A stretch of DNA of 64,000 nt from Chloroflexota bacterium (GTDB taxonomy: Bacteria; Chloroflexota; Anaerolineae; Anaerolineales; Anaerolineaceae), in assembly GCA_021779955.1 (NCBI GenBank), contig JAJXZS010000005.1:1-64000 (forward strand), read 5' to 3'. The notes under the pieces are model-generated. The model worked only from the letters and a program-made list of their open reading frames with translations. It was not told the origin of the DNA and did not search any database. The position numbers were made by a program, and so were the translations under genes. How positions within the stretch are numbered: the stretch's first letter is position 1; every line of letters starts with the position of its first letter. Of the stretch, positions 36,063-53,443 are shown piece by piece.

Positions 36063-36110
36063 ATTTCGCTCCTTCTGAAGATGTAGACATCTAGACGATA
36101 CGTTTCTTGT

Positions 36111-37787: not shown

Positions 37788-38505
37788 AACACTTCAAGAT
37801 CCTGCCGCCATCGCTGTAAGGGCAGCCGATATTTTTATGGCAGATGCTGTTGCTGCGATTCGTTCGCGCGGCTCCTTTTCGGTGGCTTTGTCAGGCGGTT
37901 CAACGCCGTTGGGTCAGTACGGTATGCTTACCCACGAGCCATATTTAGGCAAGATCTATTGGCCAAAGTGCTTTCTTTTCTGGGGAGACGAGCGCTGCGT
38001 ACCCCCCAACGATACCGACAGCAACTACCTGCGCGCGATGGTGACCTTGATCTCCAAAATCCCCATTCCCATCGGGAATATCCATCGCATTCACGGTGAA
38101 CTGCCGGCCGAGCAGGCGGCTGCGGCGTACGAATCTGAATTGCGGTCTCATTTTGGTTCTCTGCCGATCTTCGACCTGATTCTTCTTGGTATCGGTCCTG
38201 ACGGGCACACGGCCTCACTGTTCCCGGGCACGTCAGCGCTTGAGGAGAAAGAGAAGTGGGTCGTCAGCGTGCCTCACTCCACTCCGCCGCCTCCGCTCGT
38301 CGATCGCGTCAGTCTTACTTTACCCGTGATTGATGCTGCAAGGCACGTCGTATTTCTCGCCGCCGGCGCAGAAAAGGCAGAAATCGTGGCTCGAATCTTC
38401 AGTAAAGATAGGTCTGAACCTCTCTTGCCCGCCCAACGAGTCGATCCCCACCCTGGCAAGTTGACCTGGCTGCTCGATCAGTCTGCTGCTTCACGCCTGT
38501 CCTAA
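37768..38505 (+). CDS. pgl: 6-phosphogluconolactonase
   Basis: About 245 residues of the DevB/SOL family that hydrolyses 6-phosphogluconolactone. Motifs are [18 protein letters not shown] (phosphate site), [18 protein letters not shown] (read here as [12 protein letters not shown]) and [16 protein letters not shown] (catalytic His). ATG 37768 has GGAGGAGG just upstream inside the end of zwf; ATG 37774 is a second option. The C-terminus [17 protein letters not shown] is typical. It completes the zwf-pgl pair. Confidence 0.95.
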
Positions 38506-38540
38506 GCAGACTGTGCAGGAATGGTTCACTGCTAAATCTG

Positions 38541-38640
38541 ACCTACCCAACCCTCCCTTCAGGGAGGGCTTTATTTCCCTTCCCTCGCCGCACTTGCGCC
38601 CTACGTTAGGGTCAGGGAAGGGCGGGGGTTAGGTCGTTCT
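38541..38640. repeat. Copy of the dispersed GGGAGGG hairpin repeat plus related GC-rich palindromes
   Basis: The palindrome CCCTCCCTTCAGGGAGGG at 38551-38568 is preceded by ACCTACCCAA, the same orientation-flipped flank seen at 23983-24014. It is followed by a second imperfect palindrome up to TTAGGTCGTTC near 38634. It lies after pgl and may also serve as a terminator. Confidence 0.75.
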
Positions 38641-38773
38641 TCCCCTCATAGAGGTTTTTGCTTTATCTCGAACACTCTTCCTACCTCTGTCGTTTGCTTT
38701 TGTCTATACTCAGATCGCATCGACCGCGTTCGCCAATCGTCCTTTCTGCTTTCTAAGCAAGAAGGAGGCCGCC

Positions 38774-39110
38774 ATGGAATCGCCCCCACTCTCTCCATGG
38801 TGACGCAGCGGTCTTAATCGGTATGCTCGTTGGTTTTTCCGTTCTCATCTTCAATTAAATCAGAGTTTGCTTCACCCGCCCGCCCATCCTCAAACAAATG
38901 ACCGCAGCAACTTCGGTCCTCTTCACAGGTGACGATATCCTCGCCGGGCAGCAGGTCTTCCTCAAATATGGGCTGATGGATAACGGCGTAATCTGGAGAC
39001 ACGGCGCCTATCTCGGACCCGCCAGCATCTTCGGATTCCTGGGCGTCATCCCGATTGCCATTGGAACGGTCATGGCGTACTTCAAGATGCGGTATCTGCC
39101 GCAGTCATAA
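38774..39110 (+). pseudogene. Remnant of a quinol-dependent nitric oxide reductase (qNOR/NorB) gene
   Basis: An intact AAGAAGGAGG ribosome site precedes ATG 38774 (MESPPLSPW, the typical qNOR 'SPWW' start), but the frame breaks at about 38800. The next frame continues AVLIGMLVGFSVLIF, the first membrane helix, hits TAA at 38856, then resumes PPILK...VLFTGDDILAGQQVF LKYGLMDNG...HGAYLGP, the diagnostic qNOR external domain. After that the sequence jumps to a short hydrophobic tail (GVIPIAIGTVMAYF) and stops at 39110. The entire catalytic heme-copper-like domain of several hundred residues is missing. It is dead: one frameshift, one stop and one large deletion. Confidence 0.85.
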
Positions 39111-39143
39111 GGAGGCAACCCGCTTCTGTACCAGCAACCCTGC

Positions 39144-39875
39144 TTACTTCCACTTGGTGAGGATCTCTTCCCTCTGGAACGTTGCTTTCACCAGGAAGAA
39201 CACAACCACGTCGATGACAGCCACTATTGCCGCCCCGATCAGCAAATTGGTCGTCGTCAGATCGAGCACTTTTGTTTCTGACAGTACATACACGGCCCCC
39301 ATGGGCAGCATGATCAGCGCGCCAAGTTGTTGGGCGCTGCGCACATCGTTGGAGCGCGAAGAGATCAAAACGTTATATCCGACGCTCAAAAGGCAGGCAA
39401 GCGGTCCAAGCAGGAACACGATGATCACAATATTCCAATTGGGATAATAGAAATAGCCCAGCAAGTTGTGGGTGAACAGGTCCACCAGGGTCGCGAATAT
39501 CAATACACCCACAAAGTTGGCGCCGATGGCAGGCAGAAAAGCCGCGATGCTCTTCCCTGCCAGGATCTCTTCATCGGTTGTTGGCGTGGCCAGCAACGGT
39601 TCCAGGCTTTTCTGAACTTTTTCACCGACCAGGCTGTACGAGGCAATCCCCACTGGCGCCAGGGCTGCGCCGATCACAAACAAGAAAGAAAAGGCGTTCA
39701 GAAGAATGGGGAGTGACGCCGCGGCGCCAGGCTTGGAAGTCACGAAGCGAATCACGAACGGCAAGCCAATCGAGACAATAACTTCGAAATAGAAGATTGA
39801 ATAAAAGATGCTCTTCCTTTTTGTGAAGGTTTTGAAATCCTTCGATGCAACCATCCACGCTTTTGAGAGTCTCAT
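39144..39875 (-). CDS. ABC-2 type exporter permease
   Basis: A 243-residue membrane protein with six helices and the loop GEKVQKSLEPLLATPTTDEEILAGKSIAAFLPAI, a hallmark of ABC-2 permeases (EKExxTLexLLxTPxs-like). It probably extrudes a peptide, lipid or drug together with the ATPase whose gene ends four bases into it (ATGA overlap). An N-terminal cytoplasmic stretch KAWMVASKDFKTFTKRKS precedes helix one. The substrate is unknown. Confidence 0.88.
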   Translation of the reverse strand: MRLSKAWMVASKDFKTFTKRKSIFYSIFYFEVIVSIGLPFVIRFVTSKPGAAASLPILLNAFSFLFVIGAALAPVGIASYSLVGEKVQKSLEPLLATPTTDEEILAGKSIAAFLPAIGANFVGVLIFATLVDLFTHNLLGYFYYPNWNIVIIVFLLGPLACLLSVGYNVLISSRSNDVRSAQQLGALIMLPMGAVYVLSETKVLDLTTTNLLIGAAIVAVIDVVVFFLVKATFQREEILTKWK

Positions 39876-40801
39876 TTTGTCTCTTCTATGACCTTGAGAT
39901 AGGTCTCTTCCAAACCGGGATTGAGCTGTGTAACATACTGGATTCGCCCGCCAGCATCGACAATCGCCTGAACAAAATCAGGGTTTTCCTTCTGCGGATC
40001 GGTCAATGACAGGACGATTTTATTCTCTTCGACGCTCAAATCTTTGGGCGAATATCTTCTCACCGCTGCCAGGATTTGGTCATTTACCTCTTCCACCTGG
40101 ATGACCGTCTTGCTTCCCCACACGGTCTTCTCCAACTCTTCCGGCGTGTTGATGGTCAGCAGTTTCGTCTTCAAAATCCCGATCCGATCACAAATCCGTT
40201 GGGCTTCAGCCAGGTTATGCGTGTTGATGAAAATCGTCTTCCCCTCTTTCTTGAGCTGCAGGATAATGTCTCTCACCACCCGGGCAGATTCCGGGTCGAG
40301 GTTGGCTGTCGGCTCATCGAAGAAGAGTAGTTTGGGGTCGTGAATCAACGCCCTGGCGATCGCAACCTTCTGTCTCATCCCTTTGGAATAATTGCTGACT
40401 GGCTGATCCTTCTTGTCCCATAGCTCCATCATCGTCAGGAAATGTTCAATATTCACTTTTCTGACGTCTTCAGGGCATTCATAAAGCTTGCCGTAATAGT
40501 CGAGGTTCTCATACGCGCTCAACTCATCATACAAGCCAATATTATCGGGCACCAGCCCGATCAACTTTCGGATCGCCAGGGAAGCCGTTCCATCATCGCC
40601 AATTTGATATCCCGCAATTTGAGCATCGCCGCTGGTTTTGGAAATCAGGCAACAAAGCATCCTGATCGTGGTGGTTTTCCCGGCCCCGTTCGGACCGAGC
40701 AAACCAAACACCTCTCCCTCAGCCACGGAAAAGGTCAGGTTGTCGACCGCCGTGAACTCTCCAAACTTTTTGGATAGATTCTTTACTTCGATCATGCTCA
40801 T
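39872..40801 (-). CDS. ABC-2 type exporter ATPase
   Basis: A 309-residue ATPase with Walker A GPNGAGKTT (about 38-46), signature YSKGMRQKVAIARALI, Walker B LLFFDEPTANLD and switch FINTHNLAEAQRI. After about residue 215 there is a DUF4162-like C-terminal domain (VNDQILAAVRRYSPKDLSV...). It overlaps the permease on one side and a 69-residue membrane protein on the other, making a three-gene operon. The first codons MSMIEVKNLSKKFG are partly duplicated at 41167, see the remnant there. Confidence 0.93.
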   Translation of the reverse strand: MSMIEVKNLSKKFGEFTAVDNLTFSVAEGEVFGLLGPNGAGKTTTIRMLCCLISKTSGDAQIAGYQIGDDGTASLAIRKLIGLVPDNIGLYDELSAYENLDYYGKLYECPEDVRKVNIEHFLTMMELWDKKDQPVSNYSKGMRQKVAIARALIHDPKLLFFDEPTANLDPESARVVRDIILQLKKEGKTIFINTHNLAEAQRICDRIGILKTKLLTINTPEELEKTVWGSKTVIQVEEVNDQILAAVRRYSPKDLSVEENKIVLSLTDPQKENPDFVQAIVDAGGRIQYVTQLNPGLEETYLKVIEETK

Positions 40802-41007
40802 TTTTGTTTGTTGATTCCTTTACGGCCAAACGCGGACCAGACGGTTATCCCGATGAGGATTACGCAGGAAATGATCCAGATAATGAAAGGCGTCTTTGGA
40901 ACAGCCCCGGTCTGCGAACTGATTCTATTGAAAACAACAATACCCAGGACGATGTCTGCAATGGTTAGCCCCAAGGGGATTCTTATGGATAATTTCACCA
41001 GCTTCAT
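40798..41007 (-). CDS. Small two-helix membrane protein of the exporter operon
   Basis: A 69-residue protein with hydrophobic helices at about 11-27 and 41-60, starting MKLVKLSIRIPLGLTIADI and ending in a basic tail. Its stop overlaps the ATPase start (ATGA), so it is translated with the exporter. It has a clear paralogue at 41180-41371 with the same layout (IPLxxTI...RISxxTG.xP.T.FI.WI..xVILIGITxWS). Function unknown. Confidence 0.75.
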   Translation of the reverse strand: MKLVKLSIRIPLGLTIADIVLGIVVFNRISSQTGAVPKTPFIIWIISCVILIGITVWSAFGRKGINKQK

Positions 41008-41048
41008 TTTGGTTTCCTTGTGCGGTTCTTTCCTGGTGAACTCATTTC

Positions 41049-41167
41049 AAGAAAGTATACACTCAGTATAAGGAAAATCCTTCAAAACAACACCTGTTGT
41101 TGACTAGGTCGGAGCATCGACCGCGGCGATCCTCAGTTTGTTTCTCCATGTTCTTGACTTCAATCAT
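41049..41167 (-). pseudogene. Truncated duplicate of the exporter ATPase start
   Basis: After the second small membrane gene, ATG 41167 (minus) begins MIEVKNMEKQTED, matching the first residues of the ATPase at 40801 (MSMIEVKNLSKKFGE) with the same spacing after the small gene. The match then fades and the frame ends after about 35 residues, near 41060. It indicates that the small gene and the ATPase were duplicated together and the second ATPase copy was deleted. Confidence 0.55.
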
Positions 41168-41179
41168 GCTAATAACTGA

Positions 41180-41371
41180 CTATGCCTTCTTCCGGTTTCG
41201 CATCCATGACCAGATCGTGATCCCGATGAGGATGACGGAGGCCACGATCCAGAGGATGAACCAGGTTGTCGGAAACGGCCCTGTTTTTGTGGATATCCTC
41301 ATGAATGCAATAATCCCCGTGATGACGACAATGATGGTGACGACCAATGGAATTCTCAAGGATAACTTCAT
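41180..41371 (-). CDS. Paralogue of the small two-helix membrane protein
   Basis: A 63-residue protein, two hydrophobic helices (about 6-22 and 35-54) and the tail WMRNRKKA. ATG 41371 has AGGGGTG just upstream on the minus strand; a longer reading to 41470 has no such site. It shares IPLVVTI, RISTKTG, FILWI and VILIGITIWS with the 69-residue protein at 40798. It appears intact although the ATPase copy behind it is a stub. Confidence 0.65.
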   Translation of the reverse strand: MKLSLRIPLVVTIIVVITGIIAFMRISTKTGPFPTTWFILWIVASVILIGITIWSWMRNRKKA

Positions 41372-41643
41372 TTTGCACCCCTTTTCCGGTCGGCTTATGC
41401 CCGACACCCGAGCAGATAGGTCTGACTTTTCATACGAAACCATTATAGGTCGCGGAAGATTAAAACCCAATTAGTGTCATGCAAAGATTTGTTCAAGCTC
41501 TTGAAACAGGGTTTCCCCTTAATGAACTTTAGCGAGCGCAAACCAGAATTTCTGAAATGATGGCATTGACTTCGCCATCTCCGGTCACTTCGCGCTCGAA
41601 TTCTGCTGCGGCTGCGCAACCGATGCCTCCTGGCGCGGGATCC

Positions 41644-41941
41644 CTATTTCTTGCGCGCAGACACCTGCACCTCAAAGCTCTCTGCCATGTAGACGCTGGT
41701 CTCCCCTTTTCCGCAGCCCGGGTCGAGAACCTTCTGCCCGGGCTTGAGTTCCAACTTGCGCAGCGTCCTCACGGTCAGGTACAGACCACCCCGTCCTCAC
41801 GGTCAGGTACAGACCACCCCTACCAAAAAATTCGCGGTAGATGTCGTCCCGCGAATAGCCATCCAGCTCAAGGTAGGCTGCCCGGTCAGGCTGCTGAAAG
41901 GTGGCCAGGATTTGTCGAATCTCGGCATCGGTCCGGTTCAT
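41644..41941 (-). pseudogene. SAM-dependent methyltransferase gene broken by a 28-bp tandem duplication
   Basis: On the minus strand, ATG 41941 (AAGGGG just upstream) reads MNRTDAEIRQILATFQQPDR...FFGRGGLYLTVRT. Then a 28-bp unit is exactly repeated (41764-41791 and 41792-41819) and the frame is lost. Removing one unit restores LRKLELKPGQKVLDPGCGKG followed by ETSVYMAESFEVQVSARKK and stop TAG at 41644. VLDPGCGKGE is the SAM-binding motif I. Even the restored protein is only about 90 residues, so the gene was probably already truncated. No acceptor can be named. Confidence 0.75.
41764..41819. repeat. Exact 28-bp tandem duplication
   Basis: The unit CGTCCTCACGGTCAGGTACA plus GACCACCC occurs twice head to tail at 41764-41791 and 41792-41819. 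Its length is not a multiple of three, and it shifts the methyltransferase frame. Confidence 0.95.
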
Positions 41942-42100
41942 ATTCAACCCCTTGATTTGTGCTTAGTCGATGGAAATCAGGATAGAACAGATGTGATTTT
42001 CAGAAGTGTTCTTGTACAGGGGAATTGGTCGAAAAGCATCGCGCTGTCCTCGTTCTTTAACATGATGGCATCGTCGCAGCCTTACCGCAGGCATGGTCGC

Positions 42101-42129
42101 TTCAACCAGAATCCGCCGCGTGCTATAAT
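42101..42129 (+). promoter_or_regulatory. Promoter of the DUF1801 gene
   Basis: Weak -35 TTCAAC (42101-42106), 17 bp, and consensus TATAAT (42124-42129), 52 bases before GTG 42181. Confidence 0.5.
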
Positions 42130-42180
42130 TATTCACACAAAAATGATAATAATTCGCGCAATTGCTGCGAGGAGGTTACG

Positions 42181-42648
42181 GTGAGTCCAAGAAAAGAAAC
42201 CACTGAAAGCGTAAAAGAGTCAACAAAAAGCTCAATATCTACCAGGGGGTTTACAGCAGAAGAAAAAGCTGCCATGCGGGAGCGGATCAAGGAGGAACGG
42301 GCAGCCGGGACTGCCGCTGAAGCGGAGAGCGCCGTGCTTGCCAGGATCGCCGAGATGGTTGAGCCTGACCGCTCCATGGCGAAGCGCATTCACGCCATAG
42401 TCAAAGAGACAGCGCCTTCGCTCACTTCAAGGCTTTGGTATGGCATGCCCGCATATGGCAGGGAAGGCAAGATCATCTGCTGGTTCCAGGACGCAGCCAA
42501 GTTCAAGGCTCGCTATGCCACTTTTAGCTTCAGCGATGGAGCGAAACTCGACGAGGGCGCCATGTGGCCGATTTCTTATGCGTTGATGGAATTGACACCC
42601 GCTGCGGAGGCGAAGCTCCGCGCCTTGGTGAAGAAGGCGGTGGGGTAG
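42181..42648 (+). CDS. DUF1801 (YdhG/iron-chaperone-like) protein
   Basis: A 155-residue cytosolic protein. The N-terminal 40 residues are charged and probably helical ([18 protein letters not shown]). From about residue 60 it matches the DUF1801 fold: [40 protein letters not shown] and [31 protein letters not shown]. The fold is related to frataxin-like and iron-handling proteins, but activity here is unknown. GTG 42181 has GAGGAGG upstream. It is a single gene at the left edge of the AT-rich accessory patch. Confidence 0.85.
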
Positions 42649-42686
42649 TCTACCGAACAATCTGGGGGTCATCAAGGAGGTAATCA

Positions 42687-42785
42687 ATGGGTTGGTTTGG
42701 GCAAAGATCAAACTATTATATTTATACGATGCCTCCGATCTCGATATGCTATAGAAATACGGAAAAATCAATATGTACCGTTTGA
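42687..42785 (+). CDS. Possible 32-residue small protein
   Basis: ATG 42687 is preceded by a perfect AAGGAGGT (42675-42682) and opens a 32-codon frame rich in Tyr and Ile (beginning MGWFGQRSNYYIYTMPP), ending TGA 42783-42785 inside the Fic promoter region. The ribosome site is the main evidence. It could be a degraded start of a longer gene. I do not recognise it. Confidence 0.3.
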   Translation: MGWFGQRSNYYIYTMPPISICYRNTEKSICTV

Positions 42786-42818
42786 TATATTGCAAAAATT
42801 AGAAAAAGTTGATATATT
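42782..42818 (+). promoter_or_regulatory. Fic promoter overlapped by a 10-bp direct repeat
   Basis: TTGCAA (42790-42795), 17 bp, TATATT (42813-42818), with the start codon only nine bases further on, so the message would be nearly leaderless. TTGATATATT occurs at 42782-42791 and 42809-42818, touching both promoter boxes. The Fic protein carries a winged helix, so autorepression is plausible. Confidence 0.5.
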
Positions 42819-42827
42819 AAATGCATC

Positions 42828-43907
42828 ATGTTGTTCGATGCATCATATCCCTACGCACTTCCAGCCCTTCCGCCGGCGGTCAAAATATCCAATACCGATT
42901 TTGGAGACCTTTTGATCAAAGCGCGAGTTGGGCTCGCTGAGCTAAAGGGCGCTTGCGGGCAGCTGCCAAATCCACTACTCTTGATTTCGCCTGCTGTGAT
43001 CCGTGAGTCAGTAGCAAGTTCGAACATCGAGAATATCAACACAACCGTGGCTGAAGTGCTGCAATGGCAGTTGTTTCCTGAATCTGAACGACGCCAGCCG
43101 GATAAGGAAGTCTTGCGCTACCGTGAAGCTCTGATCTGGGGATATGGCCAGCTCGATAGATATCCGCTGAGTTCACGCATTATCACCGGGATTCAGAGTT
43201 CTCTCATTCCGGATGGAAGTGGAGCTTTCAGGCGGGAACAAAATTCCATTGCCAACAACCGGACGCGTGAGATCCGTTATACTCCTCCGCCTGCGAATGA
43301 AATTCCCCGATTGATCTCAAACTGGGAACGGTTCGTGAATGCTGATGATGAAAGCATTGACCCCTTGATTCGCGCCATCATTGCGCATTATCAATTCGAA
43401 GCGATCCACCCTTTCAGAGACGGGAACGGCCGCACAGGGAGGATCCTGCTGGTGCTCCAGCTCGTCCAAAGTAAATTACTTTCATTGCCTGTGCTATACC
43501 TCAGCGGGTATATCAATCGCCATCGCAGCGACTATTACGACCGGCTGCTTGCGGTCACTATCGATGAGGATTGGCATGGCTATATCCAATACATGCTGGA
43601 AGGGATTTGCGACCAGGCATCGGTAACCCAGAAGACCTTTGAAGAAATTCTTGCGCTCTACCGCGAATACCGCGAAAGGCTGCGCAAAGATCACGCTAAA
43701 ATATACAGCACGGAACTCGCAGAAGCTCTTTTTACGTACCCTGTGCTATCACCTACACGGCTGGCCGAAGTGCTCCACAAGCACTACATCACCACCGGCC
43801 GCTATCTTAACCAATTGTCCGATGCAGGCATCCTGACTGCAGCCGTTGTCGGCAAGTATCATCTCTTTGCCAACCACCGCCTGATCAAAATTCTGGAGCA
43901 GGGTTAA
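42828..43907 (+). CDS. Fic-family protein with C-terminal winged helix
   Basis: A 359-residue protein. The N-terminal part carries the inhibitory motif SSNIEN (residues 64-69, S-x3-E-N), which blocks ATP in class II Fic proteins. The Fic core motif HPFRDGNGRTGR is complete, with catalytic His 194. Residues about 285-355 form a winged helix (TRLAEVLHKHYITTGRYLNQLSDAGILTA). Such proteins transfer AMP (or a related group) to a target protein, or remove it. There is no Shine-Dalgarno; ATG 42828 fits a leaderless start. It is next to the reverse transcriptase in an AT-rich patch. Target unknown. Confidence 0.9.
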   Translation: MLFDASYPYALPALPPAVKISNTDFGDLLIKARVGLAELKGACGQLPNPLLLISPAVIRESVASSNIENINTTVAEVLQWQLFPESERRQPDKEVLRYREALIWGYGQLDRYPLSSRIITGIQSSLIPDGSGAFRREQNSIANNRTREIRYTPPPANEIPRLISNWERFVNADDESIDPLIRAIIAHYQFEAIHPFRDGNGRTGRILLVLQLVQSKLLSLPVLYLSGYINRHRSDYYDRLLAVTIDEDWHGYIQYMLEGICDQASVTQKTFEEILALYREYRERLRKDHAKIYSTELAEALFTYPVLSPTRLAEVLHKHYITTGRYLNQLSDAGILTAAVVGKYHLFANHRLIKILEQG

Positions 43908-44290
43908 GAAGAAGATTTCGTTGGAGGAACATGTTTTCTCCTGAACTGGTTTCTGTTGGCTTCTAATTAGTACTTGTGCAGCAAACCCTTGGGTGCACGC
44001 TTGAAAACTAGGCGAAGATCAATTAGGGCCCGCACGAAACTTGAATTATTATGCTTCAAGGCTGCCCTCTATGCATTGTTAAAAATCTCATGATGATGCT
44101 ATAATTTTCCCATACTAAATATTCTTGAGAATCTGAAATAGCTATGACAATCAGGGCGGTGTGGAGCATGCCAATTCACTTTTCGAATAAATATATTATT
44201 GCAGGCTGCAATTCATTTCAAAGCAAAAAACGCTTGATGGGTGTATTTTTGTCCTGCTGAGATTAGCTTCTAAGAGTACGAGGGGAATAT
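43908..44290 (+). ncRNA. Candidate non-coding RNA region and 5' leader of the reverse transcriptase
   Basis: 383 bases with no credible gene. Hairpins: GTGC...GCAC (43976-43998) with an inner ACCC TT GGGT, CTTGAA/TTCAAG (44003-44008 and 44055-44060), and ATTGC AGGCT GCAAT near 44200. A promoter at 44076-44105 would give a leader of about 180 bases ending in GAGGGG before the start codon. Several defence reverse transcriptases use an upstream RNA as template, so this region is the first place to look. The call rests on position and structure only. Confidence 0.35.
44076..44105 (+). promoter_or_regulatory. Promoter of the reverse transcriptase leader
   Basis: TTGTTA (44076-44081), 18 bp, TATAAT (44100-44105). 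Confidence 0.55.
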
Positions 44291-45787
44291 ATGAAGAAAT
44301 TTATTGATCTTGCGTCCGTAGAAGCCAGTAGCCATTTTCTTAAAGGTGCTAGTTACTTCAACTCTGACTTGCCATCATATATAAGCTTTGAACCCATTTT
44401 AGCTGAAGTATCCGTAGTTTTAGGATCGAGCAATTATGCTACATTTCGATCAGCAAAACCAGCGAATTTTTCAGGTGTAAATTACAATTTCTTGTCAAAT
44501 AAAGACGGCAAATTTGCTTGGCGGCCATTGGAATTGATACACCCAGTGATCTATGTATCTCTTGTAAATGCGATTTGCAGTAAGGATAATTGGAGCTTGA
44601 TTAAATCGCGATTCTCCGACTACAAGAGCAATGTTGTTGAGTGTTGTAGCGACCCTGTAATTTCTCTCGATGAAGAAAAGGATGTTGCAAAGCAAATTAC
44701 AAGTTGGTGGCAAAACTTCGAACAGCGATCGTTATGCTATTCATTGGAGTTCAGTCATATTCTTCATACCGATGTAACAGATTGTTATGGCTCTCTTTAC
44801 ACACATAGCATTTCTTGGGCATTACATGGACTAGAAAAATCGAAGAAAAATAAAGGTGACAAAACTCTATTAGGGAACATCATCGATTCACATATTCAAG
44901 AAAGTCGATATGGGCAAACCAATGGCATTTCTCAAGGTTCCGTTCTAATGGACTTTGTAGCTGAGATTGTCCTCGGTTATGTAGATGAACAGATTTCTAT
45001 ATCTCTTAATGACAAAAAGGATTTCAAGATATTAAGATATCGAGATGACTATCGCATATTCGCAAATAGTGATGAGCGTGTTGAAGAAATCTTAAAGACG
45101 ATCAGCCAAAAACTATGGATGGTAGGCATGCGGTTAGCGGTTTCAAAGACTGTATTGAGCAGGAACGTTGTCGAAGGTTCAATTAAACCAGAAAAACTAG
45201 CAGGTATTGATTTGCAGGATTTAGGAGTTGCGAATGCCCAGACTATCCAGAAACAACTTTTGAGATTGCATTCATTTGGACAACGCTTCCCTAACAGCGG
45301 AGCACTTAGACGTCTTGTTAGCGAATTCCACACAAAGATTTCTAAAGAACCTATTACTCTTAACGACCTCGAAGTACAAATTGCCATTGCTACGGACATA
45401 GGATTTGTCTCTCCATCAACATTTCCTGCTATAGCTGGCATTCTGAGCCACCTCATATCAAAGGCTTCTTCTGCAGATAAGGATCGGCTTTGGAACAAAG
45501 TCTGTCAGAAAATGCGGCGTGTGCCATATAATGGCTATCTTGAAATATGGCTGCAGCGCGTAACAAAACCGAAAACACTTGGGATGCAGTTCACTAGTGA
45601 TGAGTATATTTGTAGAATTGTGAATGGCGAACCTATTGACTTATGGGAGAACAGGTGGATTAAAAGCCCAGAACTCAAAGAAGCATTGCATTCATCAAGA
45701 ATATTCGACGAGGCTAAATCTGATGTTGGAGAAGTAATCCAACCTGAAGAAGTTGAACTTTATACAAGAAAAGCTTTGCAGTATTAG
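44291..45787 (+). CDS. Stand-alone reverse transcriptase, defence-associated (DRT/Abi-like) type
   Basis: A 498-residue protein. Catalytic motif A is HTDVTDCYGSLYTHSISWAL (Asp 161); NGISQGSVLMDFVAEI (211-226) is the template-positioning motif B; LRYRDDYRIF (248-257) is motif C with the two Asp at 252-253. TDxxxxYxSIYTHSxxWAL and YRDDYRIF differ from retron and group II intron enzymes (YADD) and fit the unknown-group/abortive-infection RTs. About 240 residues after the palm are helical (FGQRFPNSGALRRLV, NGYLEIWLQRVTKPK), like the alpha-repeat tail of Abi-type RTs. There is no maturase, endonuclease or nitrilase domain. It is AT-rich unlike its neighbours and probably horizontally acquired. The exact class is not assigned. 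Confidence 0.88.
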   Translation: MKKFIDLASVEASSHFLKGASYFNSDLPSYISFEPILAEVSVVLGSSNYATFRSAKPANFSGVNYNFLSNKDGKFAWRPLELIHPVIYVSLVNAICSKDNWSLIKSRFSDYKSNVVECCSDPVISLDEEKDVAKQITSWWQNFEQRSLCYSLEFSHILHTDVTDCYGSLYTHSISWALHGLEKSKKNKGDKTLLGNIIDSHIQESRYGQTNGISQGSVLMDFVAEIVLGYVDEQISISLNDKKDFKILRYRDDYRIFANSDERVEEILKTISQKLWMVGMRLAVSKTVLSRNVVEGSIKPEKLAGIDLQDLGVANAQTIQKQLLRLHSFGQRFPNSGALRRLVSEFHTKISKEPITLNDLEVQIAIATDIGFVSPSTFPAIAGILSHLISKASSADKDRLWNKVCQKMRRVPYNGYLEIWLQRVTKPKTLGMQFTSDEYICRIVNGEPIDLWENRWIKSPELKEALHSSRIFDEAKSDVGEVIQPEEVELYTRKALQY

Positions 45788-45790
45788 ATG

Positions 45791-45865
45791 CAAAACCAAA
45801 ATCTGTAGCATATAGGCAATCGAGGCATCTATCTTTAAATAGCTAAAGGTAATTATTTGGTTTTG
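45791..45865 (+). ncRNA. Structured element directly after the reverse transcriptase
   Basis: A perfect 10-bp inverted repeat, CAAAACCAAA (45791-45800) with TTTGGTTTTG (45856-45865), encloses 55 bases. Inside, TAGC/GCTA and CTAT/ATAG can pair, giving a branched fold of about 75 nt that begins four bases after the RT stop. It may be a terminator, a processing signal or an RNA partner. No T run follows. Confidence 0.4.
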
Positions 45866-45999
45866 GTCCTGAAAGGAATATAACCTGGGACGTGATTAGC
45901 CTACCCCGCATTAACATAAAGTATCTTTATGGCTTCCACTAAAATTCGTCAGGTTATCCTCTCAATTCGGATTATATGTCTCAATCATTAAATAGTAAG

Positions 46000-46072
46000 T
46001 GCCCCCAACCAGATTCGAACTGGTGTTTTGGCCTTGAGAGGGCCACGTCCTGGGCCACTAGACAATGGGGGC
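46000..46072 (-). tRNA. tRNA-Glu (anticodon CTC)
   Basis: On the minus strand, acceptor GCCCCCA pairs with TGGGGGC. The D arm reads GTCTAGTGGCCCAGGAC, typical of tRNA-Glu, the anticodon loop is CTCTCAA (anticodon CTC), and the T arm is CCAGTTCGAATCTGG. Discriminator A; CCA is not encoded. It bounds the right side of the AT-rich accessory patch. Confidence 0.95.
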
Positions 46073-46161
46073 GTCTGAGTTCCAAAATTCTATCATGCCT
46101 CCCATTCACTGTCAACGAATTCGCCTATTCCCAAACCTTTCGTATAGATATATAATTGTAT

Positions 46162-46190
46162 TTGACTTGCTTTCCCACTAGTGCTATCAT
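46162..46190 (+). promoter_or_regulatory. Promoter of the yacL-like gene
   Basis: TTGACT (46162-46167), 17 bp, TATCAT (46185-46190). Confidence 0.65.
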
Positions 46191-46254
46191 TTTTGTACCT
46201 GGCAATCATCAATTTTCATCCAGCACCTTAACATGCACTTATTGGAGTTATTTT

Positions 46255-47349
46255 ATGAGCACTGAAACTATTTTTCGCCTCCTGGGCGCGATCATTCTTA
46301 CCATCGTTGGAATGATTTGGGGTCAGCAGCTTGGCATTTCCGCCAATCAAAATCCCCTCCCCGGCACGCTCTCCGTCGAACAATACACTTTCGCGGTCGG
46401 ACTGGTCGGCGCCCTGATCGGGTTGATCGTCACTCCCTACTTTACCACCCGCCCTGCTCGGTTGTTAAGAGATGTTTTCAAAAGGGTTTCTGCGCAAACC
46501 CTCTTTTCGGGTTTAATCGGCGCCATCGCAGGCCTTATCATCGCGGCGCTGCTGGCGTATCCACTATCCCTGTTACCCACCCCCTTTGGACAGGTCATGC
46601 CATTCCTGGCAGTGATCTTCTTTGGCTATACCGGCATGGCACTCTTCGTCATGCGCCAGGGCGATTTCGTGGGCGTCTTGTCCGCGTTGCGCGGAAACGG
46701 CGGTACCACCAAAGAGAACCAGGCCAGCGCCTGGTCTGAGCGCACCATTCTGCTCGATACCAGTGTGATCATCGACGGCCGCATCGCCGATATTTCGCGC
46801 ACAGGCTTTCTCCCCGGATCGCTCCTGATTCCCAGGTTCGTGCTCAATGAACTTCAATACATTGCCGATTCCCCGGACGCGATGCGCAGGCAGCGTGGCA
46901 GGCGCGGCATGGAAGTGCTCGCTTCTCTCCAAAAGGAACCCACCATTCCCGTCCGCATCTCCGACATCGACGTTGAAGGCGTGCGCGAGGTGGATGACAA
47001 GCTGGTCGTCCTGGCCAGGCAGCTCAAGTGCCCCATCCTTACCAATGACTACAATCTCAACCGTGTGGCCGAGCTCCAGGGCGTGATCGTGCTCAACGTC
47101 AATGAACTGGCAAATGCAGTAAAATCAGTCTTGCTTCCCGGCGAGGTGATGACGGTGCATGTCATCCAGGAAGGCCGCGAGTCGGGCCAGGGGGTTGGCT
47201 ATATGGATGATGGCACCATGGTCGTTGTCGAAAACGGCAGAGAATACATGGACCGCGAGATTACTGTGATGGTCACCAAAGTGCTGCAGACAGCCGCAGG
47301 GCGCATGATCTTCGCGAGGCCGGAAGAATCGAATGGTTCGGATCATTAG
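46255..47349 (+). CDS. YacL-like membrane-anchored PIN-TRAM RNase
   Basis: About 364 residues. Four N-terminal membrane helices (up to about residue 140) are followed by a PIN nuclease domain with acidic residues in place: ILLDTSVIIDGRIADI, RFVLNELQYIAD, VREVDDKLVVLAR and ILTNDYNLN. A C-terminal TRAM domain follows (LPGEVMTVHVIQEGRESGQGVGYMDDGTMVVV). Start ATG 46255 has GGAG upstream; an earlier in-frame start lies at or before the promoter. It precedes cysS and rlmB, the same neighbourhood as Firmicutes yacL. It probably cleaves RNA at the membrane. Confidence 0.9.
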   Translation: MSTETIFRLLGAIILTIVGMIWGQQLGISANQNPLPGTLSVEQYTFAVGLVGALIGLIVTPYFTTRPARLLRDVFKRVSAQTLFSGLIGAIAGLIIAALLAYPLSLLPTPFGQVMPFLAVIFFGYTGMALFVMRQGDFVGVLSALRGNGGTTKENQASAWSERTILLDTSVIIDGRIADISRTGFLPGSLLIPRFVLNELQYIADSPDAMRRQRGRRGMEVLASLQKEPTIPVRISDIDVEGVREVDDKLVVLARQLKCPILTNDYNLNRVAELQGVIVLNVNELANAVKSVLLPGEVMTVHVIQEGRESGQGVGYMDDGTMVVVENGREYMDREITVMVTKVLQTAAGRMIFARPEESNGSDH

Positions 47350-47361
47350 AGGAGTAGTGGC

Positions 47362-48762
47362 ATGACATTGAAGGTATACAACACGTTAGGCCGCAAGAAA
47401 GAGGAATTCAAGACCCTGCATTCGGGCAAGGTTTCCATGTACGTCTGCGGTCCCACCGTCTACTCCAAGGCGCATATCGGTCATGCGATGAGCGCGCTCG
47501 TTTTTGATATCATCCGCCGCTACCTCGAATATCGCGGTTACGAGGTGCGCCACGTCATGAATTTTACCGATGTGGACGACAAGATTATCCTGCGCGCGAA
47601 GAAAATGGGCGTCGACCCCTTTGCCCTGGGTGAAGGGTACATTCACGAATTTGAACAGCATCTCAAGGATTTCAAAATCCTGCCTGCCACGGTCAACCCG
47701 CGTGCGACTCACGAAATGCCCGAGATTATCGAAATGATCCAGGGGCTCGTCGACAAGGGCTATGCCTACCAGGTCGATGGCGATGTCTACTTCCGTGTTG
47801 AGAAAGATGCCCATTACGGCAAGCTCTCAGGTCGCAAGCTCGACGACATGCAGGCCGGCGCGCGCGTCGACGTGGACGAGCGCAAGGAAAACCCCATGGA
47901 CTTTGCCCTCTGGAAGGCTGCCAAGCCGGGTGAACCTGCCTGGGAATCGCCGTGGGGCAGCGGCCGTCCGGGTTGGCACATTGAATGCTCGGCGATGAAC
48001 CTGGCGTATCTTGGCGAGCAGATCGATATCCATGGCGGCGGAAACGACCTCATCTTCCCGCACCACGAGAACGAGATTGCCCAGACCGAAAGCTTCACGG
48101 GCAAACCCTTTGCCCGATATTGGATCCACAACGGTATGCTGCAGTTGATGGGCGAGAAAATGTCCAAGTCGATCGGCAACCTGGTGACCATCGAGGAATT
48201 CCTCTCGCTTCACTCGCCGGATGTTCTGCGCATGCTCGTGCTGAACTCCGGGTATCGCAACCCGCTCTCCTATTCCGAAAGCATCCTCGATCAGGTCGAA
48301 AGCGGGCTCGAACGCCTGCGTGGAGGGATGAAGTGCCAGCTTCCAGGTGCCAAAGGCGCTTCCGAACAATGCCTGAAAGATCTTGCCGCGGGGATCGAGA
48401 GGGTTAAGACCGGATTTGTCGAAGCCATGGACGATGATTTCAACACGGCAGGCGCGCTGGGTGGACTTTTCGACTTCGTCAAAGTGATCAACCAGGCTCG
48501 CGCCGAAGGTGCGACAGACGCCGAGCTTAAATCTGCCCGTGCAACTCTCTGCGAACTCACGTCGGTTCTCGGTCTCACGCTCGAAAAAGAGAAAACCGGA
48601 TCAGCCCAGTTGGACGGAGTTGTGGACCTGCTTATCGAAATTCGCCGTGACTTGCGCGCCAACAAACTCTGGGTGCTTTCGGATAAGATTCGCGACCGCC
48701 TGGCTGCCATGGGCATACTTCTCGAAGACAGCAAAGAAGGCACATCCTGGCGCTGGCAGTGA
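47362..48762 (+). CDS. cysS: Cysteinyl-tRNA synthetase
   Basis: A 466-residue class I synthetase of usual length. VCGPTVYSKAHIGHAMSALVFD holds the zinc Cys and the HIGH motif (38-41). GWHIECSAMN and GGNDLIFPHHENEIAQ hold the remaining zinc ligands and active-site residues. KMSKSIGN (about 267-274) is the KMSKS loop. The variant YSKAHIGHAMSALVF instead of the common YDxAHIGHARTxVxF marks an unusual subgroup but leaves catalytic residues intact. It follows the PIN-TRAM gene by 12 bases and precedes rlmB by 7. Confidence 0.97.
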   Translation: MTLKVYNTLGRKKEEFKTLHSGKVSMYVCGPTVYSKAHIGHAMSALVFDIIRRYLEYRGYEVRHVMNFTDVDDKIILRAKKMGVDPFALGEGYIHEFEQHLKDFKILPATVNPRATHEMPEIIEMIQGLVDKGYAYQVDGDVYFRVEKDAHYGKLSGRKLDDMQAGARVDVDERKENPMDFALWKAAKPGEPAWESPWGSGRPGWHIECSAMNLAYLGEQIDIHGGGNDLIFPHHENEIAQTESFTGKPFARYWIHNGMLQLMGEKMSKSIGNLVTIEEFLSLHSPDVLRMLVLNSGYRNPLSYSESILDQVESGLERLRGGMKCQLPGAKGASEQCLKDLAAGIERVKTGFVEAMDDDFNTAGALGGLFDFVKVINQARAEGATDAELKSARATLCELTSVLGLTLEKEKTGSAQLDGVVDLLIEIRRDLRANKLWVLSDKIRDRLAAMGILLEDSKEGTSWRWQ

Positions 48763-48769
48763 GGGCTCA

Positions 48770-49531
48770 TTGAAAGAATGGATCATCGGGCGAAATCCCG
48801 TCATTGAAGTGCTTCAGGCGAAACGCAGAGATGTGTTTCGCCTCCTTGTTGCCTCGGGCGTTGACGAGAAGGGGCGCGTCCACGAGATCATGTCGCTTGC
48901 CGCGAGCCGCAAGATACCCATCGAGCGCGTTCCGCGCGAAAGGCTGATCCCCATGGGTGAGAATCCACAGGGGGTTGCGCTTGAGGTCAGCGCGTATCCT
49001 TACGCCGACCTGGCAGACATTTTCGAGCGCGCTGCAGAACGCAAGGAAGATCTTTTTATCCTCATTCTCGACATCATCCAAAACCCCCAAAACCTGGGCA
49101 CCCTGCTGCGAACGGCTGAAGCTGCAGGCGTCCACGGTGTGATCATCCCCCTGCGCCGCGCCGCAGACGTAACCCCCGCGGTCGTTTCGGCATCTGCAGG
49201 CGCCAGCGAGCATATGCTCATCATTCAAGAGAACCTCGTCCGCGCCATCGACACGCTCAAGAAACACGATGTGTGGGTCGTTGGCCTGGAGGGCAGTGAA
49301 GAAGCCAGACCGATTGAGGAAGTTCCTCTCACCGGGCCGCTGGCGTTGGTGGTCGGCAATGAAGGCGAGGGGATGCGCCTGCTGGTGCGCGAATCCTGCG
49401 ATTTCCTTCTCAAGCTGCCAATGCACGGCCGCATCGAATCGCTCAATGCCGCCGTCGCAGGCTCCATCGTCATCTATCAGGTGGTTTTAGCCCGCCAAAA
49501 ACAATCTCCCTCCCCGCAGGAGATGCCTTGA
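48770..49531 (+). CDS. rlmB: 23S rRNA 2'-O-guanosine methyltransferase (RlmB/TrmH family)
   Basis: About 253 residues. The N-terminal substrate-binding domain begins KEWIIGRNPVIEVLQAK. The SPOUT knot carries LDIIQNPQNLGTLLRTAEAAGVHGVIIP, LVVGNEGEGMRLLV and PMHGRIESLNAAVAGSIVIYQ. It uses SAM to methylate a ribose in 23S rRNA. The start is TTG 48770, with GAGGG four bases upstream; earlier readings overlap cysS. Position after cysS matches the common bacterial order. Confidence 0.94.
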   Translation: MKEWIIGRNPVIEVLQAKRRDVFRLLVASGVDEKGRVHEIMSLAASRKIPIERVPRERLIPMGENPQGVALEVSAYPYADLADIFERAAERKEDLFILILDIIQNPQNLGTLLRTAEAAGVHGVIIPLRRAADVTPAVVSASAGASEHMLIIQENLVRAIDTLKKHDVWVVGLEGSEEARPIEEVPLTGPLALVVGNEGEGMRLLVRESCDFLLKLPMHGRIESLNAAVAGSIVIYQVVLARQKQSPSPQEMP

Positions 49532-49596
49532 CCTGGTATTTCGTCCTGCCCAATCCTTGCCTGTTGAGTGGTTTGCCATCCTCAGCTTTTCGCCAA

Positions 49597-49626
49597 TCAT
49601 CCTGAGCGCAGCGAAGGATCTTCAAC
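49597..49626. repeat. Single copy of a dispersed CATCCTGAGCGCAGCGAAGG repeat
   Basis: ATCATCCTGAGCGCAGCGAA followed by GGATCTTCAA matches the inverted ends of the element at 53157-53272. Confidence 0.6.
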
Positions 49627-49666
49627 TTGCTCTTATACACCCCTTCACCCTGCCCCCATTCACTGT

Positions 49667-49716
49667 AAAAAAAACCACCCGAGTGAACATCTCAAAAATC
49701 GTCCCTTCGGGTGGTT
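49667..49716 (-). terminator. Terminator of the serS/DUF456 transcript
   Basis: On the minus strand, AACCACCCGA (49716-49707) pairs with TCGGGTGGTT (49682-49673), followed by a run of eight T (49674-49667). The loop is 24 bases. Confidence 0.75.
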
Positions 49717-49731
49717 AGTATCTTCACGCCC

Positions 49732-50235
49732 CTATCGGATGAGCAGCATCCACACCACCCATAGCCCGATCATCACTACTCCAATGAAGAAGCGGATGAT
49801 CATCGCCAGGCCGCAGCCCCTCAAAATCCCTCCGGTGGACCTCAACCCTGCTTCAAAATCCCGGTTACGAATCCATTCCACTGTGAGGATGCCCACCACA
49901 GCGGCAATGATCCCGCCGAATGGCGGCAGCAAGATTGTCCCCGTGATGCCAGCCGCGATCGCGACTGCGATCGAGATCCACGATGCACCGGACTTGTGCG
50001 CCTCTCTGCCCATCATCACGTTGTCGATGATGTTCCCGCCGATCATCAATAGGGTGATCACGCCAAAGATGATCCCTGTAGGTAGGGTGAACCCTTTGAC
50101 GATTCCGAAAGTCAAAATCGCGATCCAGATGATCGTCAGGCCGGGCACGATGTACAGGAAAAGGCTGAACAATCCGATCGCCATGATCACGGCCAGCACA
50201 GGCACGAACCACGAGGAATTCGCGATGGCTTCCAT
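49732..50235 (-). CDS. DUF456 family membrane protein
   Basis: About 167 residues with five hydrophobic helices. The DUF456 pattern is clear: GLFSLFLYIVPGLTIIWIAILTFGI, GNIIDNVMMGREAHKSGASW and a Gly-rich TGTILLPPFGGIIAAVVG with GILTVEWIRNRDFEAGLRST. I prefer the start at ATG 50235, just after the serS stop, over ATG 50268 inside serS. It is probably co-transcribed with serS. Function unknown. Confidence 0.8.
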   Translation of the reverse strand: MEAIANSSWFVPVLAVIMAIGLFSLFLYIVPGLTIIWIAILTFGIVKGFTLPTGIIFGVITLLMIGGNIIDNVMMGREAHKSGASWISIAVAIAAGITGTILLPPFGGIIAAVVGILTVEWIRNRDFEAGLRSTGGILRGCGLAMIIRFFIGVVMIGLWVVWMLLIR

Positions 50236-50237
50236 CT

Positions 50238-51506
50238 CTACTTGATCACTTCCACTCCGCCCATCCACGGCCGGAGCACCTCGGGCACCACGATCGAGCC
50301 GTCAGCCTGCTGATTGTTTTCGAGTACCGCGATCAGCGTTCTTGGCAAGCCCAGGCCCGAGCCGTTCAGGGTGTGAACCAGCCGGGGTTTGCCGCCTTCT
50401 GCAGGCTTGTAACGGATGTTCGCACGCCTTGCCTGGAAATCGCCGACATTTGACACTGACGACACCTCGAGCCATTCGTCCTGGCCTGCAGCCCAAACCT
50501 CGACGTCGTAGGTGATCTTTGCGTTGAATCCCAGGTCGCCGGTGCACAGGCGTTTGATGCGATAGGGCAGGCCGAGTCCTTTACAGGTGGCTTCGGCATC
50601 GCCAAGCATCTTCTCGAGCTCCTTATCCGACTCCTCTGGCTTCGCATAGATATACATTTCAACCTTGTCGAATTGGTGGCCGCGTTTGATTCCGCGCACA
50701 TCTCGCCCTGCGCTCATCTTCTCGCGCCTGAAACATGGCGTATAGGCCGTGTAGCGCATCGGCAGCGTTTCTTCATCGAGGATTTCATCCCGGTACATCC
50801 CTGTCAGCGGAACCTCTGCTGTGGGCACCCACCAGTAGTCTTCCTCGGCGTCGTGGTACAGATTATCGACGAACTTGGGCAGTTGGCCGGAGGCAAACAA
50901 CGTTTCGGACTTTACCATGAAGGGTGTGTAGCGTTCTTCGTATCCCTGCTGGTTATGCAGTGCCAGCATCCACGAGATCAGCGCCCGCTCCAGCCTGGCA
51001 CCCAACCCGTTGAGGATATAGAATCGTGTCCCGGTCAGCTTCACCCCCCGGTCGAAGTCGATGATGTTCAGCTTCGTCCCCAGGTCCCAATGCGGCAGGG
51101 GAGTGAAGTCGAAATGCGGAACTTCGCCTTCGTATCTCAAGACCACATTCTCGCTGTCGTCCTTGCCGTACGGCGTGCTCGGATCTGGCAGGTTGGGGAT
51201 GGACGCCACCACGTACTTCAGCTTCTCGTCGACCTCGCGCACCCGATCGTCCAACCTGGCGATTTCGTCGCCGACCACGCGCATGGCGTCGATCTTCTGT
51301 TGGCGTTCGGCCGGATCTTTGAGCTTGCTGATTTCCTTGCTGACGGCGTTGCGCTCAGCCTTGAGCTTTTCCACCTGGTTCAGCAGGCTGCGGCGCTCTG
51401 CATCCAGCTTCAGCACTTCGTCCACCGGCACATCGTCCATTTGACGATCCCGCAGCGCCTTCTTCACGAGCTCAGGGTTTTCACGAATGAGATTGAGATC
51501 GAGCAT
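50238..51506 (-). CDS. serS: Seryl-tRNA synthetase
   Basis: A 422-residue class II synthetase that charges tRNA-Ser (and tRNA-Sec). The N-terminal coiled-coil arm is clear ([28 protein letters not shown]). Motif 2 is [29 protein letters not shown], and motif 3 is [19 protein letters not shown]. Length is normal. It is preceded by a T-box leader with a probable serine (UCC) specifier and a consensus promoter, so expression should rise when tRNA-Ser is uncharged. Confidence 0.97.
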
Positions 51507-51529
51507 CTTGCACCTCTCTTGAGAAATAA

Positions 51530-51770
51530 TAACGCCCCCGATCCTTTGCAGGACGAGGGGCGCGCTCGTGGTGCCACCTGCTTTCGCTCAAAATTGAGCC
51601 TTGTTGTGCGGTAACGGCAGCTCCGGCTTTCTTACGACATCGATTTTTGATGTCCCTGCGAAAGCGACCCACCCTTTCGGGCGTCCGGGTTGGATTGTTT
51701 CGATTTCGCTGCCGTCTCGCACCAACCGCCGGCTCTCTGGAAGCTCCACCGAACTTATTTCCCGGGTAGG
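51530..51770 (-). promoter_or_regulatory. T-box riboswitch of serS with terminator
   Basis: Read on the minus strand, AGAGAGCCGG and GGTGCGA blocks of stem I come first (near 51738-51715). The candidate specifier UCC (51694-51692) follows, next to the CCCGG arm that pairs with CCGGG near 51765. Then the T-box core GGTGGCACCACGAGCGC lies near 51580. The terminator pairs GCGCCCCTCGTCC with GGATCGGGGGCG and ends in TTATTATTT near 51530. Uncharged tRNA-Ser should bind the specifier and core and allow read-through. Confidence 0.88.
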
Positions 51771-51786
51771 TCTCTGAATTTTCTAG

Positions 51787-51814
51787 ATTATACTCCGCCC
51801 AAACTGCCTGTCAA
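51787..51814 (-). promoter_or_regulatory. Promoter of serS
   Basis: On the minus strand, consensus TTGACA (51814-51809), 16 bp, consensus TATAAT (51792-51787). Confidence 0.85.
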
Positions 51815-51917
51815 GCAATACAACTCAAGTCCTTGAACCTGTTTGATTCCTCTTGGTTGCGTTAACCTCAAGCGTCTCCCACGAATGATCACAGTATCTG
51901 CCACATGCTCTAGATCC

Positions 51918-51982
51918 ATAATGACTGATGCCTAATGACTGATCCCTAATCCCTAATCACTAATCCCTAATCACTAATCACC
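51918..51982. repeat. Short tandem repeat of a CTAATC/CTGATC-type unit
   Basis: About seven imperfect copies of a 9-10 bp unit (CCTAATCAC, CCTAATCC, ATGACTGATG) lie between the serS promoter and the end of the prenyltransferase gene. A simple repeat of this kind can change copy number. Confidence 0.8.
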
Positions 51983-51987
51983 TTTCC

Positions 51988-53028: not shown

Positions 53029-53156
53029 ATCTCCCTCACTGAACCAATACTTTCAACTTGAGCACATTTCTATTATAAATGAATCCAACCATAAAACTCC
53101 AATTTTTCCGAGAATGATCCATCCTTGTTTATCAAACTGAACGCCGCGCACTGTCT

Positions 53157-53272: not shown

Positions 53273-53443
53273 ATATTTACGCTACAGGCCGCAAGGCATA
53301 TCCCGGGCCTCGTTTTTCGATTCTCTGTTCTCAATTCCATGAACACCCACTATCGGCTCTCACCCTTGTGCTTTTACGATTCTCGAATCTTGAAAATCGT
53401 TTCTCCGTCTTTTTAAGATACAATTAACCGCGAGGTTCAAACC

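Follow-up and report, generated by a model that had tools for sequence, protein, structure and literature searches.

What kind of reverse transcriptase (RT) is encoded at 44291-45787 of this Chloroflexota contig, and could it protect its host against phage? The gene lies in the window, by which we mean the whole 64-kb stretch of DNA analysed here. A first-pass annotation had read it as a stand-alone, defence-associated RT of the unknown-group/Abi kind.

An intact RT gene in an AT-rich patch

The gene and its immediate surroundings comprise the following features:
42828..43907, + strand: SoFic-like protein, neighbour (Pfam Fic_N, Fic and SoFic-like_C)
44076..44105, + strand: promoter-like site TTGTTA-18-TATAAT, its second hexamer preceded by TG (consensus scan only, 10/12 positions)
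44280..44285, + strand: Shine-Dalgarno-like GAGGGG, 5 nt ahead of the ATG (read from the sequence)
44291..45787, + strand: AbiP2-family DNA polymerase with RT fold, 498 aa (PADLOC, PDB sequence match, AlphaFold2 and Foldseek)
45999..46072, - strand: tRNA-Glu (CTC) (ARAGORN; Rfam tRNA, 61.8 bits)

The ORF at 44291-45787 (+) begins with ATG and runs through 498 codons to its stop in an intact frame. Reading it confirmed the RT motifs quoted in the first-pass annotation, namely TDVTDCYGSLYTHSISWAL, NGISQGS (from N211) and YRDDYRIF (from Y250), with the catalytic pair Asp252-Asp253. RVT_1 is the sole Pfam domain of the protein (E 4.8e-10), and because it is the only match there is no fused nitrilase or maturase domain at the Pfam threshold (E 0.001), in agreement with the stand-alone enzyme that had been described. 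The host genome (2.83 Mb in 56 contigs) contains one RVT_1 match, which is this gene.

The composition of the patch is indeed unlike that of its surroundings, as first noted: GC content is 39.1% in the RT gene and 38.8% in the patch at 43908-45998, compared with 54.1% in the 64-kb window, and 0.013% of the window's 2091-bp stretches are as low in GC as the patch or lower. Away from the patch, the lowest value for a 2091-bp stretch is 39.7%, and this minimum presumably sits in a second AT-rich patch at 61-64 kb. Among relatives, GC content drops in the RT gene relative to the remainder of its locus at 49 of the 54 loci with at least 50% identity and at 44 of 47 loci below 50% identity, the latter including near-duplicate prophage loci. 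Low GC relative to the surroundings is a habit of the AbiP2 family, which is a caveat on the AT-rich patch.

Pfam and ARAGORN confirm the Fic gene and the tRNA as neighbours. The SoFic-like protein scores 351 bits with the PADLOC SoFic profile and 309.7 bits with the NCBIfam SoFic model, under the cut-off of 550. On the right of the RT gene, the 3' end of tRNA-Glu (CTC) points toward it, 211 nt past its stop codon, and a PIN/TRAM protein (Pfam) lies beyond the tRNA. The three neighbouring proteins scanned with Pfam were the Fic protein, a DUF1801 protein and this PIN/TRAM protein. The promoter-like site ends 185 nt upstream of the start codon; the consensus scan of 43900-46080 returned 10 sites, against 5.6 (sd 2.0) in shuffles.

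Elsewhere in the window, the second AT-rich patch (61029-64000, continuing to G000:C35:70288) has 40-44% GC. It carries a type III restriction methyltransferase, which scores 677 bits with PADLOC MTase_III, and, besides a small ORF, a gene truncated by the window end that scores 277 bits as the defence candidate PDC-S05. A 993-aa ORF beyond that end may be the restriction subunit. A perfect 28-nt tandem duplication occupies 41764-41819, and one further feature was annotated:
18736-18846, + strand: TPP riboswitch (Rfam RF00059, 64.3 bits)

Profiles, tree and predicted fold place the protein in AbiP2

The PADLOC AbiP2 profile matched residues 1-494 of the protein over profile positions 4-486 of 489 with 626.5 bits, far ahead of RT_UG14 (167.5 bits), DRT6 (155), DRT4 (UG15; 140), DRT3b (113) and AbiK (97), and it also matched all 60 rows of an alignment of the window protein with 59 relatives. 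The eight NCBIfam models listed for the protein, none of them an AbiP2 model, all scored under their curated cut-offs. Several named classes were rejected on these scores: DRT4 (UG15), for which Drt4 gave 132.3 bits (cut-off 450); group II intron RTs, for which group_II_RT_mat gave 43.3 bits (cut-off 300) and Pfam gave no maturase domain at E 0.001; and retron RTs, for which the sole retron model listed, retron_St85, gave 27.9 bits (cut-off 235). The remaining models were Drt3b (108 bits, cut-off 350), Drt5 (36, 550), Drt3a (25, 200), AbiA (21, 250) and Drt2 (19, 390).

The structural comparisons point the same way. The best solved structure by sequence is Abi-P2, PDB 7r08 (245 bits, E 1.2e-71, residues 1-491), and an AlphaFold2 model built from the 60-row alignment (pLDDT 90.1, pTM 0.90) superimposes on 7r08 in Foldseek with TM scores of 0.84 (query) and 0.86 (target) over 520 columns. 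Scores fall to 0.65 for DRT6, 0.63 for UG15, 0.62 for DRT4, 0.57 for AbiK and at most 0.48 for AbiA, and further to about 0.39 for group II RTs, 0.33 for the DGR RT 8ubd and 0.29-0.33 for DRT2 and DRT9. The model also contains the long helical tail that had been anticipated, helices alone following the palm, with its boundary (about residue 291) read from the predicted secondary structure:
45161..45784, + strand: C-terminal helical domain, about residues 291-498

A tree of residues 60-300 was computed for 49 rows, with labels taken from PADLOC and NCBIfam scores where rows had been scanned; the labels of the DGR-like and some other rows are ours, given on motif and size. P2-EC30 was not a row, and the P2-like viral rows L113 and L115 were. 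Thirty AbiP2 rows, the window's among them, form one clade (support 99/90), and the window RT falls inside a 17-row AbiP2 subclade (100/100), in a tree in which the five group II rows are not one group and no branch divides the outgroup from all other rows. Seven rows, several of them outgroup, have very long branches whose joins, the program warns, may be unsure. The AbiP2 clade excludes the group II, retron, UG5 and DGR-like rows. The four DGR-like rows form a separate clade (99/98), and with the TM score of 0.33 for 8ubd this led us to reject a DGR RT.

The NCBIfam cut-offs and the tree thus uphold the initial placement outside retrons, group II introns and DGR enzymes, and no clustering of the palm domain with group II or DGR RTs was seen. 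The initial class assignment survives in part: the protein is of the Abi/UG type, but it does not belong to an unknown group, since profile, tree and fold all identify full-length AbiP2, and an undefined UG family is ruled out by the same three lines. By these sequence and model comparisons, the gene at 44291-45787 is a complete AbiP2 gene, of a family already known. What had been an undefined RT can now be read against a family whose structure has been solved and whose priming residue is mapped, so that its activity could be tested by a few point mutants.

The predicted priming tyrosine and the catalytic residues are retained

The residues in question are encoded as follows:
44378..44380, + strand: Tyr30 codon (predicted priming tyrosine; aligns with E. 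coli Abi-P2 Tyr61)
44771..44773, + strand: Asp161 codon, first catalytic Asp (Asp in 102/102 rows)
45044..45049, + strand: Asp252-Asp253 codons, in RYRDDY (Asp in 102/102 rows)

In E. coli Abi-P2, Tyr61 lies on the loop that joins helices 2 and 3, and the Y61F protein makes no DNA while Y46F still polymerizes, as described in PMC9508834. Tyr61 was identified as the tyrosine of LPAYINF from that paper's numbering (residues 1-541 of 546) together with a hand-counted alignment to 7r08. LPAYINF aligns with LPSYISF of the window protein, whose tyrosine is Tyr30, and Tyr46 aligns with His15. In the AlphaFold2 model, Tyr30 is likewise in a loop, between helices 19-22 and 34-44.

Conservation was scored over 102 distinct near-full-length rows (those aligned from query residue 15 or earlier to 430 or later), obtained from 118 loci by dropping 11 that were partial, split or weak (L053, L062, L075, L077, L078, L080, L083, L084, L092, L131 and L132) and six exact duplicates, among them P2-EC30 (L008), which is identical to another row, and by adding the window. 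Tyr30 is kept in all 102 rows, as is Pro28, and Phe33 in 101, giving a PxYxxF priming motif, whereas position 15, the Tyr46 equivalent, varies (H in 43, Y in 34, F in 25). RYRDDY, KDGxxxW and CYGSLYT are invariant in part by construction, having served as search patterns; Tyr30 was absent from all search patterns used. The other motif residues tested are likewise kept in the window protein. Conservation of PxYxxF across the sampled rows therefore lends comparative support to a single-residue priming result that comes from one E. coli protein.

No recurrent partner gene or conserved RNA flank found

Some defence RTs, such as DRT2, DRT9 and DRT10, are templated by an ncRNA, and such a template could be accommodated here in the intergenic stretches on either side of the gene, 43908-44290 (383 nt, upstream) and 45788-45998 (211 nt, downstream), which are both long enough; the promoter-like site ahead of the start codon would suit it as well. 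The flanks themselves speak against this reading. When 300-nt pieces from the window and 54 relatives of at least 50% identity were compared by blastn, the upstream pieces matched in 6 of 1485 pairs and the downstream pieces in 5 of 1431 (54 rows were long enough), no pair involving the window, whereas two 300-nt coding controls matched in 1344 and 1472 of 1485 pairs; this comparison is at blastn level, and a lineage-specific or fast-changing ncRNA could escape it. RNA folding of the flanks was no better than that of shuffles (z -0.86 and -0.45), and Rfam at gathering scores returned two tRNAs and the TPP riboswitch in the whole window and nothing in the RT flanks. The enzyme is moreover of the AbiP2 lineage, and the member of it that has been studied works with no nucleic acid added, by the account in PMC9508834, and the DRT2 and DRT9 structures resemble the model poorly (TM 0.29-0.33). 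We therefore regard an ncRNA-templated RT as very improbable.

Protein partners were sought among 572 neighbouring ORFs of at least 80 aa, taken from the window and the 54 relatives within flanks that reached 6 kb unless the contig ended sooner. Just two clusters are shared by at least three loci, and neither is Fic: one spans eight loci and includes the window's putative ABC-type ATPase 4.4 kb away, and the other comes from three rhizobia with conserved surroundings. The Fic gene was considered as a partner and rejected, as it did not recur across the window and these 54 relatives. A Fic relative is present in 7 of 16 genomes of the host genus, the window's own included, and in one of the 16 (G011, L157:3331-4847) a different Fic (36% identity) occupies the same 3' side of the same tRNA-Glu with no RT, which points to variability of the spot rather than to a Fic-RT system.

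In some type I-C loci, RTs related to AbiP2 have been proposed to act in CRISPR spacer acquisition (PMC8934634), a role that could in principle extend to this gene. Such a role seems scarcely credible here, given that direct repeats of at least 16 nt in 41500-47500 include no CRISPR-like array, that the three Pfam-scanned neighbours are the Fic, DUF1801 and PIN/TRAM proteins, and that no recurrent neighbour cluster at the 54 relatives is of the cas kind. With flanks unconserved, partners not recurrent and folding ordinary, the locus looks like a one-gene system: by these sequence comparisons, the AbiP2 gene may act alone, without ncRNA or partner gene.

AbiP2 is spread widely and patchily across bacteria

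A scan of genome contigs confirmed 388 relatives, and only the best 80 of them were retained. Forty of these best 80 have at least 60% identity (60-72%) and come from at least 11 named phyla plus one record with no resolved phylum, led by Pseudomonadota (22) and Chloroflexota (6), with the proviso that many are MAG contigs and some phylum labels may be wrong. Plasmids yielded 198 matching records, 112 of them with one place covering at least 80% of the query; phage records yielded eight, six covering at least 80%, with P2-EC30 and P2-EC58 among them; and IMG/VR yielded 28 loci, one a weak partial match. At E ≤0.001, the gene has matches in 14 of 400 Chloroflexota genomes, and in 5 of the 400, counting the window's own, the match is nearly full length with an identity of at least 39%. 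Four of 101 relatives of the host genome match, three at full length, and G043 and G029 are in the host's family. Within the host genus, the gene is present in 1 of 16 genomes.

The suggestion of a single-gene RT defence system that this gene might define or extend in Chloroflexota did not hold: AbiP2 is a known family found in at least 11 phyla, and a Chloroflexota-specific family was rejected on the relatives of 60-72% identity. AbiP2 goes back to studies of P2-like prophages (as cited in PMC9508834), and RT surveys list it as a class (PMC8934634, PMC4244168). The stem "Chloroflex" is absent from the main texts of the two surveys, and a literature search combining Chloroflexi with Abi and RT terms found nothing related; we do not claim AbiP2 in Chloroflexota as previously unreported. 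What the window presents is a known single-gene defence, moving widely between bacteria, in a new host.

Occurrence in a single genome of the genus, with no partner gene found, might also suggest an RT that is inactive, or domesticated, and plays no part in defence. We consider this quite improbable, since the frame is uninterrupted, Tyr30, the three Asp residues and the other tested motif residues are kept, and a patchy spread at 60-72% identity across phyla fits a selected mobile gene.

Some Anaerolineae relatives lie in small tRNA-bounded units

The position beside a tRNA invites comparison with other genomes. A relative of the PIN/TRAM gene is present in 14 of 16 genus genomes; upstream of it lies tRNA-Glu (CTC) in seven of the 14, the window's included, tRNA-Gly in two, and no tRNA that could be found in five, whose loci are cut short by contig ends. 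By eye, from translations, the nearest gene on the 3' side of tRNA-Glu differs among the seven. In the window, a repeat of the tRNA-Glu end was sought and no match of 11 nt or more occurred within 36001-56000, with which a separate comparison over 38001-45980 agreed; against 43901-44290, the best local alignment scored 17, equalled in 19 of 100 shuffles.

Two relatives do have such repeats. In genome G043 (L022:8078-9956, the same locus as L031, DUED01000030), the AbiP2 gene has an intact tRNA-Asn on one side and, on the other, a copy of that tRNA's 3' end (37 nt, 94.6%) that starts 90 nt past the RT gene, in a unit of ~1.8 kb with the RT as sole ORF above 100 aa. In the Anaerolineaceae contig DMCS01000040 (L056:5909-8330), the RT gene and a 201-aa ORF, which has a sub-threshold HepT-like hint only, lie between a copy of the tRNA-Gly 3' end (24 nt, exact, 68 nt ahead of the RT gene) and an intact tRNA-Gly, in a unit of ~2.4 kb. 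Besides the RT and the 201-aa ORF, neither unit contains an integrase-sized ORF. Phage_integrase matches number 10 in the host genome (G000), 4 in G043 and 3 in G029, none on the RT contig.

Direct repeats of at least 20 nt flank the gene within 1500 nt at 3 of 99 loci, against 0 of 457 displaced placements, and those of at least 15 nt at 6 of 99 against 7 of 457; within 450 nt, the figures are 2 of 99 against 0 of 1133 (at least 20 nt) and 4 of 99 against 3 of 1133 (at least 16 nt), counts that are not independent because the 99 loci include near-duplicates and the control placements overlap. Two of the three loci with repeats of at least 20 nt are the tRNA units, as the third, L087, is an hsdS-like 3'-end repeat. 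ARAGORN found tRNAs at 4 of 54 loci, three of them (L031, L043 and L056) less than 1 kb from the RT; we call no tRNA enrichment, since three or four loci are too few. At L043, the nearby tRNA-Arg has its 5' end facing the gene, and no repeat spans the gene. An empty counterpart of the tRNA-Asn site was sought at the loci of 19 relatives around the kinase that neighbours the unit in G043, with 1.5-kb flanks (20 loci were fetched, one being G043 itself), and none was found: 18 are without tRNA-Asn, and L210 has one further from the kinase.

Other settings were observed as well. The closest relative among the best 80 of the 388 (71% identity) is at L025:3800-7300 (MEWR01000025), where the RT lies between the second and third of four attC-like cores (TAACGCnAnCCGTT) in what looks like an integron cassette array; its contig is labelled Abawacabacteria, which may be a binning error, and the L025 pattern finds no such core in the 64-kb window. 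At L087:2059-8610, an AbiP2 relative follows an hsdS-like ORF whose 3' end recurs after the RT, and the locus reads, with labels given by eye from translations, as a type I restriction-modification locus; L085 has a shorter repeat at the same distances. In the P2-like phage pro147 (L009:556-4545), AbiP2 adjoins an annotated reverse transcriptase and a retron Ec48 effector.

These observations leave room for a tentative model, which we think possible but rather unlikely, in which Anaerolineae AbiP2 would be an integrase-less unit of ~2 kb that enters tRNA 3' ends and is moved in trans, the window copy being such an insertion at tRNA-Glu with its distal repeat decayed. The recombinases of other elements would then supply the movement. 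If true, a tRNA-nested element could hardly be smaller than this one-gene phage defence. The two tRNA-bounded units point to a way in which a defence made of one gene may spread among genomes that have had little study.

Proposed mechanism and comparison with known systems

The published account of Abi-P2 from prophage P2-EC30 describes a trimer that synthesizes DNA without a template and needs no added nucleic acid, and it states that orf570 of P2-EC30 protects E. coli against T5 (PMC9508834). The class 1 UG/Abi RTs studied so far are described as template-free (PMC13174585, PMC13275509). The role in defence of the undefined single-stranded DNA is, according to PMC13275509, yet to be determined, and PMC13174585 likewise calls it unclear how the synthesis modes drive defence, the DRT3b product being ordered and not random.

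As judged from alignment and model, the window protein has the family, the fold, the three catalytic aspartates and the predicted priming tyrosine. By analogy with E. coli Abi-P2, it would form a homo-oligomer, a trimer, in which the Asp161/252/253 site would join the first nucleotide to the hydroxyl of Tyr30, in the fingers loop, and the covalently attached single DNA strand would then be extended without a template. More tentatively, this polymerase activity may stop phage production during infection. The gene was probably acquired by horizontal transfer, beside a tRNA-Glu whose neighbouring genes vary within the genus. Because identity to the studied member is only 32%, the oligomeric state, product and trigger may differ from those of Abi-P2. 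As a whole, we consider it highly probable that the gene encodes an AbiP2 polymerase, oligomeric and primed at Tyr30, which would make single-stranded DNA without a template and serve as a horizontally acquired, single-gene phage defence.

Set against known systems, group II intron, retron and DGR RTs have the RVT_1 palm in common with the window RT but fall outside the AbiP2 clade, with TM scores of about 0.3-0.4. UG14, DRT6, DRT4 (UG15), DRT3b and AbiK are closer in combining an RT palm with a C-terminal domain, yet they reach 97-167 PADLOC bits and, where solved, TM scores of 0.65 at most. In the Anaerolineae contig DUED01000030 (L031/L022, 69% identity) and in DMCS01000040 (L056, 62%), AbiP2 likewise lies near a tRNA 3' end, in units closed by a copy of that end, whereas none was found in the window. 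The nearest studied system is Abi-P2 of E. coli prophage P2-EC30 (orf570; PDB 7r08; PMC9508834). It differs in being 32% identical, in an ORF annotated as 31 N-terminal residues longer, and in its place in a P2-like prophage, whereas the window gene is chromosomal, tRNA-adjacent and from Chloroflexota. The two are alike in their full-length alignment and fold (TM 0.84/0.86), in the Asp triad, the RYRDDY box and the priming tyrosine in PxYxxF, and in being single genes in spots believed to be horizontally acquired.
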